From: Methylobacillus sp.
GTDB lineage: Bacteria > Pseudomonadota > Gammaproteobacteria > Burkholderiales > Methylophilaceae
Assembly (NCBI GenBank): GCA_018607785.1
Contig: JABBAU010000008.1
Location: forward strand, 1 to 63,666
Direction: 5' to 3'
DNA length: 63,666 bases
Below the pieces are notes generated by a model. It was not told where the DNA came from. It saw only the letters and a list, made by a program, of their open reading frames with translations, and ran no database searches. A program made the position numbers and the translations under genes. Each line of letters starts with the position of its first letter. The stretch's first letter is position 1. Shown here in pieces: positions 61,009 through 63,666 of this stretch.

Positions 61009-62535
61009 TTAGAGAGTATTTAAATTTTTTAAATAAAATTCTGCTTTTTTATTGATTTGTTCTTTTTGAGTTGGATTCATTTTTTTAAGTTGACTATTTA
61101 CAATTCCTAATCTTGGATTTTTTGAAAGCTTATCTTGATGTCTATCAAAAAAATTCCAATAAAGTGAATTAAATGGACAAGCATTTTCTCCCACTTTTTC
61201 CTTAAAATTATATTTACATTTAGCGCAGTAATTACTCATTTTATTAATATAGGATGCAGATGATACATAAGGCTTCGTTGCTAACATCCCACCATCGGCA
61301 AACTGACTCATGCCTAGTGTATTAGGAAGCTCTACCCATTCATATGCATCGATATAAATTCCAAGGTACCATTGATGAACCTCTTTTGGATTAATACCTG
61401 CTAATAAACTAAAATTACCAATAACCATCAGCCTTTGGATATGATGGGCATATGCGTTAGTTAATGATTGCGAAATGCTTTGTGATAGACATCGCATATC
61501 GGTTTTTCCTGTCCAGTACCATTCAGGAAGCTTATTTTTATGCTCAAAAAAATTATGTTGATCATACCCGGGCATATTTGCCCAATAAACTCCTCTAATA
61601 TATTCACGCCAACCCAAAATTTGTCTTATAAACCCTTCAGTTGATGCCAGGGGTAAATCTTTTTTCTTGTATGCATCTTCAGCCTTTTTAATCACTTCAA
61701 TTGGGCTAAGCATTTTAGTGTTTAGTGAAAAAGATAAAAATGAGTGGAATAATCTCCAGTTTTCATCATGAAGGGCGTCCTGAAAATCACCAAAATAAAG
61801 AAGATCTTTTTCAATAAAATTTTCAAGTAATTCAATAGACTCATCCCTACTGATAGGCCAACGAAAATCTGTTGCTTGGCTCTCCCCAAAGTACTCGATA
61901 TTCTCGTCATTTATTTCTAAAAAAATTTTTTCGTGATTATGGGAAGGTCTAAAATCTTGAGTTGAGCTAGGTGAACCATCCCATCTTTTTCGATTGTCTA
62001 CATCATAATTCCACTTTCCTCCAATAGGTTTTTCACCCTCCATTAAAATAGAGAATTTCTTTCTCATGTGTCTATAGAATTCTTCCATCCGCCAATGTTT
62101 CTTTTCAGAAAAAAATTCTTTCGCATAGAGCTTTGGGATTAAGAAATGTTCCGAGTCAACTGGAACCGCTTTTATATCTTCGATTGAATGAAGTTTTTGC
62201 AATTCTGTCATTAACCGATATTCGTCTGGATTTTGATACTCTAGCTGGCTGAAATTTCTTTTTTTAACAATGCTTTTAATGTTCTCATAAAAATTTTGTC
62301 TGTTTTCTTTATCGTTAATTTTTAAATAAATAACCTCAAGGTCTTTTGATCTGAGTTGATTTGCAAAAAAACGCATGGCTGCAAATGTCGCTATAATTTT
62401 TTGAGCATGATGAAGCACATAGTTTGTTTCATCCTTTACCTCCATCATTACATATGTAACTGAAGAGTTCGTCTCTTTAAACCATGAGTGGTTTAAATTT
62501 AATTGGTCACCTAATATTAATCTTAGTCTACTCAT
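61009..62535 (-). CDS. phrB: FeS-type (6-4) photolyase / bacterial cryptochrome (PhrB class)
   Basis: Photolyase-related protein of 508 aa. The N-terminus RLILGDQLNLNHSWF is that of the FeS-BCP class, and four cysteines C349, C437, C440 and C453 match the 4Fe-4S ligands of Agrobacterium PhrB (C350, C438, C441, C454) with identical spacing. These enzymes bind FAD, a lumazine antenna and a 4Fe-4S cluster and repair (6-4) photoproducts with blue light. The gene is divergent from the proteorhodopsin gene across a 292-bp gap. Confidence 0.93.
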   Translation of the reverse strand: MSRLRLILGDQLNLNHSWFKETNSSVTYVMMEVKDETNYVLHHAQKIIATFAAMRFFANQLRSKDLEVIYLKINDKENRQNFYENIKSIVKKRNFSQLEYQNPDEYRLMTELQKLHSIEDIKAVPVDSEHFLIPKLYAKEFFSEKKHWRMEEFYRHMRKKFSILMEGEKPIGGKWNYDVDNRKRWDGSPSSTQDFRPSHNHEKIFLEINDENIEYFGESQATDFRWPISRDESIELLENFIEKDLLYFGDFQDALHDENWRLFHSFLSFSLNTKMLSPIEVIKKAEDAYKKKDLPLASTEGFIRQILGWREYIRGVYWANMPGYDQHNFFEHKNKLPEWYWTGKTDMRCLSQSISQSLTNAYAHHIQRLMVIGNFSLLAGINPKEVHQWYLGIYIDAYEWVELPNTLGMSQFADGGMLATKPYVSSASYINKMSNYCAKCKYNFKEKVGENACPFNSLYWNFFDRHQDKLSKNPRLGIVNSQLKKMNPTQKEQINKKAEFYLKNLNTL

Positions 62536-62780
62536 TTGAATTTATTATAAAGTAGTTCAATGCCCATTCGATATTAAAATAAAACCAACTTTAAATTTTT
62601 AAAGGAACTCCCAAAAAAAAAATATGTCTATAGGGCTTATTTTTAAAAATCTTTTTAAAAATTGTGGTAAATTTAATATTGTTTTATCAGGTGTGCTAAT
62701 AAAGTTCGTTTTTTTAAAATTTATTAGCTCTCTTTTTAAGACATTTTTTTAATCAAAACGTAAACAGTCTAAGGGTGATG

Positions 62781-62825
62781 ATGCTAAGACATTTTTGTTT
62801 AAACGTTTTTATAGGAGGGTTTTAA
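62781..62825 (+). other. Possible 14-codon leader peptide before proteorhodopsin
   Basis: ATG at 62781, five nt after AAGGG, opens a 14-codon frame ending with TAA at 62823-62825, two nt before the rhodopsin ATG. Its last codons contain the rhodopsin ribosome site. It could couple translation, but it is short and could be chance. Confidence 0.2.
62813..62818 (+). promoter_or_regulatory. Strong Shine-Dalgarno of proteorhodopsin
   Basis: A perfect AGGAGG nine nt before the ATG at 62828; it decides the start in favour of MLNPSDYVG over an upstream TTG at 62795. Confidence 0.85.
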
Positions 62826-62827
62826 AT

Positions 62828-63523
62828 ATGTTAAATCCATCAGATTACGTTGGAGTATCATTTTGGCTGCTTTCAGCTGCTATGGTTGCTGCGACATTTT
62901 TTTTCTGGGTTGAGAGAGATCGAGCTGTAGGTAAATGGAAGACTTCACTTACAGTTGCTGCAATGGTTACAGGTATTGCTGCTATTCACTATTTTTACAT
63001 GCGTGGTGTTTGGATTGATACAGGAAGTTCACCTACAGTATTTAGATACGTAGACTGGTTACTTACAGTTCCACTTCAAATTGTAGAGTTCTATTTAATT
63101 CTTGCTGCGATTGCAGTTGTTTCTATATCCGTTTTCTGGCGTTTACTTATTGCTTCTGTAGTTATGTTAGTTGCAGGCTACATTGGTGAAGTAAGTGCAA
63201 TGGGAGACGGTGGTAGCTTATGGTCTGGTTTCTGGATCGGTATGGTTGCATGGTTATATATCATCTGGGAAGTATTTAAAGGTGAAGCTAGCCAGATTAG
63301 TGCAAGCAAAGGTACTGTAGCAAGTAAGAAAGCTTTTAATGCGTTAAGATTAATTGTGACTGTTGGTTGGGCTATTTATCCAATCGGTTACTATCTTGGG
63401 TATACAGGCAGCGCTGATGCCGGTACTCTAAATATCGTATACAACTTAGCTGACTTTGTTAACAAGATTGCCTTTGGTGTTGTAATTTGGGCAGCGGCTA
63501 CATCAGGTACAAAAGCTAAGTAA
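62828..63523 (+). CDS. Proteorhodopsin, blue-absorbing light-driven proton pump
   Basis: Seven-helix type I rhodopsin of 231 aa. In helix C the motif RYVDWLLTVPLQIVE gives D76 (proton acceptor), T80, Q84 (spectral-tuning site) and E87 (proton donor), equivalent to D97, T101, 105 and E108 of green proteorhodopsin; Q at the tuning site marks blue absorption. H54 matches the H75 partner of the acceptor. Helix G has the retinal-binding lysine K213 (DFVNKIAFG). The DTE pattern predicts outward proton pumping. Retinal-synthesis genes (blh, crt) are not in the window. A strong terminator follows. Confidence 0.96.
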   Translation: MLNPSDYVGVSFWLLSAAMVAATFFFWVERDRAVGKWKTSLTVAAMVTGIAAIHYFYMRGVWIDTGSSPTVFRYVDWLLTVPLQIVEFYLILAAIAVVSISVFWRLLIASVVMLVAGYIGEVSAMGDGGSLWSGFWIGMVAWLYIIWEVFKGEASQISASKGTVASKKAFNALRLIVTVGWAIYPIGYYLGYTGSADAGTLNIVYNLADFVNKIAFGVVIWAAATSGTKAK

Positions 63524-63551
63524 TTTTTGAATCTGTAGTGTAATATTAAAA

Positions 63552-63578
63552 ACGCGTCATTTATGGCGCGTTTTTTTT
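63552..63578 (+). terminator. Intrinsic terminator after proteorhodopsin
   Basis: Eight-pair stem ACGCGTCA / TGGCGCGT (one G-U pair) with a TTTA loop, followed by eight T residues. It lies 28 bp past the rhodopsin stop and separates it from the next gene. Confidence 0.88.
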
Positions 63579-63604
63579 AATTCTTTTTTATGATTTAGGG
63601 TGTA

Positions 63605-63666
63605 ATGCAAGTAGCTGACTACAATTTACTCTACAACACTTTATCTTTTGCAATCGCCACATTTGG
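63605..63666 (+). CDS. Start of a second, xanthorhodopsin/gloeorhodopsin-like rhodopsin (partial)
   Basis: Only the first 20 codons and two bases are present; the window ends here. The frame from the ATG at 63605 reads MQVADYNLLYN then TLSFAIATF. This resembles the helix A start of Gloeobacter rhodopsin and xanthorhodopsin (recalled as FNLVYNAFSFAIAAM) far more than proteorhodopsin helix A. TAGGG at 63595-63600 may serve as ribosome site. With so few residues the family call is provisional, but a tandem second rhodopsin fits what is known of some planktonic Methylophilaceae. Confidence 0.6.
   Translation, partial: MQVADYNLLYNTLSFAIATF

Follow-up and report, generated by a model that had tools for sequence, protein, structure and literature searches.

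Opsins without the retinal-binding lysine are already in print. The Rh-noK proteins of marine betaproteobacteria (Yamauchi 2019) are described, in passages of two sources, as xanthorhodopsin-related, devoid of this lysine and found in tandem with proteorhodopsin (PR) (PMC10308929, PMC7714340), and also as accompanied by retinal-synthesis genes (PMC7714340). With the lysine restored, Rh-noK is reported in one of these passages to regain retinal binding and pumping, and the authors speculate that Rh-noK, as part of a multimer, controls the pump encoded next to it (PMC10308929). Here we analyse the end of a 63,666-nucleotide stretch of DNA from Methylobacillus sp. (contig JABBAU010000008.1 of assembly GCA_018607785.1, hereafter the window), where a complete blue-type PR gene is followed by the start of a second opsin gene. 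The product of this second gene likewise is xanthorhodopsin-related, lacks the helix G lysine and is encoded in tandem with PR and retinal-synthesis genes. Compared by description, it and the Rh-noK proteins probably belong to the same group, and the window opsin is a further member of the lysine-less (Lys-less) rhodopsins that occur beside PR in marine betaproteobacteria. No other account of a Lys-less opsin beside PR surfaced in searches of open-licence papers, judged mostly from the search listings.

Two further systems come close. In passages of Salcher 2019, twin rhodopsin genes are reported from freshwater genomes, with Trp at position 156 and the lysine in both proteins, and marine OM43 is said to carry only the xantho-like gene; those passages describe no Lys-less, PR-bearing lineage (PMC6794327). 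In our comparison, the xantho-like rhodopsin of ‘Ca. Methylopumilus’ resembles the window opsin in lying between PR and crtE and in having Trp at the position of xanthorhodopsin (XR) residue 156, but it keeps both D96 and K240 (XR numbering) in 13/13 genomes (genus g15, Methylopumilus according to the records). The accompanying PR, found in all 13, is of the green type (Leu in 12/12 with the site present), and the 2 freshwater PRs compared are only 57-59% identical to the window PR. The original prediction had cited twin rhodopsins of freshwater Methylophilaceae in its support; the report exists, but it concerns another genus with these differences. Marine OM43 strains (KB13, HTCC2181, LSUCC) have a xanthorhodopsin-like pump that belongs to the same family and operon and shares 63-68% identity with the window protein; it differs in that D96 and K240 are kept and that no PR was found in the genome.

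FArhodopsins, PR paralogs of streamlined aquatic bacteria, also lack the lysine in most freshwater forms, as far as the passages of PMC10308929 go, and are there assigned to the PR family and linked to flotillin. The window opsin, by contrast, belongs to the xanthorhodopsin family and is linked to retinal synthesis; its direct neighbours are PR and crtE (flotillin was not searched for elsewhere in the genome), and we do not class it as a FArhodopsin. Gloeobacter rhodopsin (GR) and XR are among its closest solved structures. They carry the Asp, the Lys and the carotenoid-admitting Gly, and the window opsin has none of the three.

A seven-helix opsin without key residues of a pump

The reading frame that begins at 63605 is open up to the window edge, and an overlapping contig of the same genome (C11) adds the remaining 242 codons. 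The first 20 codons occupy 63605..63666 on the + strand and the rest lies on C11 (L005 7376 down to 6648, minus strand), for a total of ~245 amino acids. The product is a seven-helix protein of the xanthorhodopsin family, with a Pfam Bac_rhodopsin score of 110 bits (cut-off 24.6) and best solved-structure matches to GR, psXR and XR (E 1e-58 to 5e-57). For a relative with 96% identity (L106), an AlphaFold model built on an alignment of 32 sequences (A2) reached a mean pLDDT of 87.9 and a pTM of 0.83, the five models ranging from 61 to 88 pLDDT, and its TM of 0.92 to psXR and GR indicates that the fold is kept.

In alignments, the second opsin has Ile at XR K240, the helix G lysine that binds retinal as a Schiff base, Gly at XR D96, the proton acceptor Asp of helix C, and Trp at XR G156, the carotenoid-antenna site. 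The residues themselves were computed; the roles assigned to the named residues of XR and bacteriorhodopsin (BR) are those we take them to have. T100 and E107 are retained in the window genome. No lysine was seen that could substitute as the retinal anchor: every Lys position shared by the full set of 13 Lys-less rows is found in Lys-bearing relatives as well, which argues against a new anchor, and, judged from the alignment, these positions appear to lie near helix ends. Since both the Schiff-base Lys and the acceptor Asp are missing, the protein could not run the known pump cycle and, on its sequence, cannot be a conventional light-driven pump.

The original prediction had envisaged two outward pumps, differing in colour tuning or in use of a carotenoid antenna. 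A proton-pumping role for the second opsin, driven by light and with a tuning or antenna of its own, accords with the protein's family, its fold and the retained T100 and E107, but is contradicted by the absence of the Schiff-base Lys and acceptor Asp, by the Trp in the antenna site and by the lack of any other lysine that looks able to serve, and we regard it as extremely improbable. The antenna reading was rejected on the Trp at XR 156. What stands of the predicted xanthorhodopsin-like gene is its family, its open frame and its seven-helix fold; as a retinal protein it fails at the key lysine, which is Ile.

The first gene (62828..63523, + strand) encodes a PR of 231 amino acids (Pfam PF01036, 160.6 bits) and is preceded by AGGAGG at 62813-62818. 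It has the D, T and E residues together with the His of helix B and the Lys of helix G, and its tuning site is occupied by Gln. In PRs, Gln at the tuning site gives blue and Leu green absorption, and the Gln therefore makes the window PR blue-type, so the description of this gene as a classical DTE blue proteorhodopsin was correct. It is 75-80% identical to the PRs of four gamma- and alphaproteobacterial loci.

Loss of the lysine is found only beside proteorhodopsin

The second opsin is present in 26/31 genomes of the genus. In all 13 genomes with an adjacent blue-type (Gln) PR, its lysine is replaced by Ile (12) or Leu (1) and its acceptor Asp by Gly (11) or Ser (2), and the Lys-less copy adjoins PR in every case, across the contig overlap in the window genome. 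No PR was found in the other 13 genomes with a second opsin, five of which are single-contig and some of the rest incomplete; here the Lys is kept in 13/13 and the Asp in 12/12 with helix C present. This Lys-bearing set includes KB13, HTCC2181 and LSUCC strains. Overall, the changes of K240 to Ile or Leu and of D96 to Gly or Ser occur in 13/13 loci of the Lys-less clade vs 0/36 full-length Lys-bearing relatives. Other substitutions also mark the clade: 13/13 copies have Tyr at XR W155 and Ser at A239, and A131 has become Ile or Val. Eleven named Lys-less records (L106-L116) come from several projects and include a FRAM18 assembly labelled BACL14 and six AH-* records, which are taken to be single-cell genomes. 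One genome of the genus, G018 (1.2 Mb, 92% complete), gave no rhodopsin match in either search.

All 13 full-length loci from outside the family keep the Lys, including four with an adjoining blue-type PR (Porticoccus, Cellvibrionales, Kordiimonadaceae and Emcibacteraceae). Loss of the lysine is thus found only beside PR, and PR does not always bring the loss. The idea that PR alone drives it is unsupported, as PR stands beside a Lys-bearing copy in 13/13 freshwater genomes and in 4/13 full-length loci outside the family. Four gamma- or alphaproteobacterial loci (L128, L129, L130 and L139) have a blue PR, a Lys-bearing xantho-like opsin and crtE-I-B in the same order.

Some variants were seen in the same material. 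Gln replaces the donor Glu of helix C in three Lys-less copies (L094, L019, L105) and in a single freshwater copy that bears the Lys (L071, G087). A further rhodopsin of the same family of bacteria (L079, G046:C15:2592-3281) adjoins PR, has Lys for the donor Glu and contains one in-frame TGA, and in L070 the xantho-like frame is split into two pieces (seen in the same contig as L150). The opsin conservation table omits L070, L071 (freshwater), L104 and L146 (truncated), the set of relatives from outside the family omits L146 and L152 (truncated) and L153 (PR-type), and near-duplicate rows are shown once in the first residue table and all in the later one.

Retention and possible role of the second opsin

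Ratios of nonsynonymous to synonymous divergence (dN/dS) were obtained by a simple Nei-Gojobori count over pairs with 0.02<dS<1. The Lys-less opsin has a median of 0.104 (26/78 pairs usable); the same-genome controls have 0.085 for PR (39/78 pairs) and 0.102 for crtE of 10 genomes (9/45 pairs), and in the Lys-less genomes crtB, crtY and blh have higher values, 0.149, 0.164 and 0.191. None of the 13 Lys-less copies has an internal stop. Members of the clade share as little as 68% identity with the window protein, a divergence that points to long retention of the gene. By these counts the Lys-less opsin is retained under purifying selection, though it is less constrained than a working pump.

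The retinal pocket has also been kept. At the pocket positions, a list that we assume from BR, 16/16 are invariant in the Lys-less clade, and D236 (BR D212) and the helix B His, H62, are present in 13/13 copies. Among the positions invariant in all 36 Lys-bearing relatives, 14/14 in the pocket vs 44/54 others are still invariant in the clade. The pattern hints at a continuing importance of the pocket and falls short of proof of retinal binding.

We consider it somewhat probable that PR pumps and that the second opsin, which selection retains, serves the PR/retinal system as an accessory without pumping itself. The blue PR would carry out light-driven proton pumping, and the second opsin, derived from a xanthorhodopsin, has lost its covalent retinal anchor and proton acceptor and would be kept in an accessory role. 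In its likeliest form it would be a partner that holds retinal non-covalently and/or packs with PR, and so affects retinal supply, assembly or pumping. The position of its gene, between PR and crtE-I-B-Y-blh, counts in favour of an accessory. A more specific version, in which the former pump, by losing its anchor and acceptor, became a protein devoted to holding retinal or chaperoning its loading, reversibly binds Blh-made retinal in the membrane and hands it to the adjacent and perhaps much more abundant PR, seems to us rather unlikely.

Several observations weigh against an accessory role. The Lys-bearing gene has a dN/dS of 0.040 in the same genus (31/66 pairs) and of 0.069 in freshwater genomes (36/78), so that the Lys-less value is ~2.6 times the former and 1.5 times the latter, and constraint has accordingly been relaxed. 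The difference between the pocket and other conserved positions is not significant (one-sided Fisher 0.08), and an earlier control against all positions, which gave a far stronger-looking 1 of 10,000, ignored the general conservation of pockets; pocket conservation was therefore rejected as proof of retinal binding, and the conserved residues may serve packing alone. Finally, the PRs of the freshwater genomes and of four other proteobacterial loci are paired with a Lys-bearing copy, which means that such a pump can do without a Lys-less partner.

The excess in dN/dS over Lys-bearing relatives of the genus would also be expected of a relic, an older pump freed by the acquisition of blue PR and now decaying, as would the 10/54 non-pocket positions that are invariant in Lys-bearing relatives and now variable, e.g. 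P139, E107 and the Gly at XR 173. The frames without stops in 13/13 copies, a ratio near 0.1 and far from 1, and the long retention implied by the within-clade divergence all speak against decay, which we judge unlikely; a pseudogene is disfavoured by the open frames and low dN/dS. A retinal-free seven-helix regulator, sensor or transporter-like protein, as has been proposed for fungal opsin-related proteins and for other Rh-noK, is a possibility that we take seriously while doubting it. The pocket signal, not being significant, leaves room for such a protein, but PR adjoins the gene in 13/13 loci, crt genes follow it in the 10 Lys-less loci fetched at length, and the counterion D236 and the listed pocket aromatics have been kept although retinal would not bind.

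The retained pocket would also suit a light-responsive protein with non-covalent retinal, either a dim sensor or a protective trap that captures free retinal. Two points count against this role, which we hold to be very unlikely: retinal without a protonated Schiff base would absorb near the ultraviolet, and the cassette genes examined include none recognised as a transducer. The accessory role remains the reading we prefer.

Organization of the locus

The window corresponds to contig C59 of a 1.18 Mb genome in 73 contigs (91.5% complete), and its edge is the contig end. A Pfam search of the whole genome found two rhodopsins, of which one is the window PR and the other lies at the end of contig C11. 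The window's final 55 bases (63612..63666, no strand assigned) overlap exactly with the end of C11, in what looks like an assembly k-mer overlap, and this sequence has only two matches in the genome. Contig C11 (L005, 7,378 bases) carries the remainder of the opsin gene, as expected from the prediction that the window edge cuts a gene lying after the full PR gene, followed by crtE, crtI, crtB, crtY and blh, the genes that had been proposed as a check nearby, and by a convergent photolyase gene. In three relatives (L084, L095 and L097; L084, G011, is a single-contig genome) an unbroken order on single contigs, photolyase-related gene, PR, second opsin, crtE, I, B, Y, blh, photolyase, indicates that the join of C59 and C11 is sound. 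An artefact of assembly or sequencing, through a false join or miscalled codons, could be suspected because the window ends at a contig end, but in view of the exact overlap with two matches only, of the unbroken order in the three relatives and of the same kind of residues in 13 genomes, with named records from several projects, we give it next to no credence.

The photolyase-related gene in the window (61009..62535, - strand; PF04244, DPRP, by Pfam) is divergent from PR and is the same neighbour as in L084, L095 and L097. Photolyase-type genes (PF04244 and DNA_photolyase) flank the rhodopsin/retinal cassette on both sides, at window 61009-62535 (-) and L005 27-1301 (+), and likewise in relatives G011, G021 and G026. 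The bracketed cassette is perhaps an island of light use and light repair.

Between the two opsin genes lies a terminator-like hairpin with a T tail (63548..63575, + strand). The count of such sites in 62500-63666 (two vs 0.8 expected in shuffles) is weak evidence, and it is conservation that carries the argument: the hairpin occurs at the same place in 10/10 of the Lys-less loci examined, the window included (of 13 such loci), and a different hairpin lies between the opsin genes in 12/13 freshwater loci. The terminator had been read as a sign of separate transcription. The hairpin is present and conserved, but its stem is 29 nt from the next start codon and it may instead attenuate, yielding much PR and less second opsin and crt enzymes. 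A promoter scan found no + strand site in the region, including upstream of PR, and because none was found even there the scan is no guide to whether read-through or a second promoter serves the downstream genes. If the terminator attenuates, the second opsin and the retinal-synthesis enzymes would perhaps both be produced in smaller amounts.

Synonymous divergence between G000 and G030 is 0.189 for PR and 0.457 for the second opsin (window 62828-63523 vs L005 6648-7376). A lower value for PR would be expected if PR were the more highly expressed.

Evolutionary history of the cassette

The Lys-less opsins form one clade (support 100/99, and 100/96 with the trait columns masked), and with masking a single branch sets them apart from all other sequences in 99% of 200 bootstrap trees, which fits a single loss of the lysine. 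In the opsin tree this clade is weakly placed next to the freshwater clade (90/46), and the HTCC2181-group opsins cluster with opsins from the four gamma- and alphaproteobacterial loci (98/98). The opsin trees omit L070, L104 and L146.

The PR gene gives another picture. The first PR tree, which omits L071, L079 and L153, had one extreme branch (L080); in the rebuilt tree, which also omits L072, L076 and L080 and has 8/26 inner branches well supported, the PRs of Lys-less genomes require two label changes and are set apart together by a single branch in 1% of bootstrap trees. A tree of the Lon protein (10/13 Lys-less genomes) places the Lys-less genomes with the HTCC2181 group and apart from the KB13 group (93/94), with its base unresolved. 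Its starred branches force four label changes, genomes without a rhodopsin match are interspersed, and the Lys-less genomes are not demonstrated to be one species clade. In the crtE+crtI tree (a short search with 9 Lys-less rows, omitting L071, L079 and L085), the Lys-less genome G016 groups with gamma- and alphaproteobacterial cassettes. This grouping, that of the HTCC2181-group opsins with gamma- and alphaproteobacterial loci, and the closer similarity of the window PR to gamma- and alphaproteobacterial PRs than to freshwater ones suggest that the cassette is mobile and recombining and seems to have been exchanged between classes.

Implications

How retinal is delivered to microbial opsins, and why opsins unable to bind it covalently are retained in many genomes, are open questions. 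The genus offers a natural comparison for both, since the same cassette occurs with a Lys-bearing pump alone and with a blue PR plus a Lys-less copy. For the annotation of marine methylotrophs, counting two pumps at this locus would be an error that overstates their capture of light energy.
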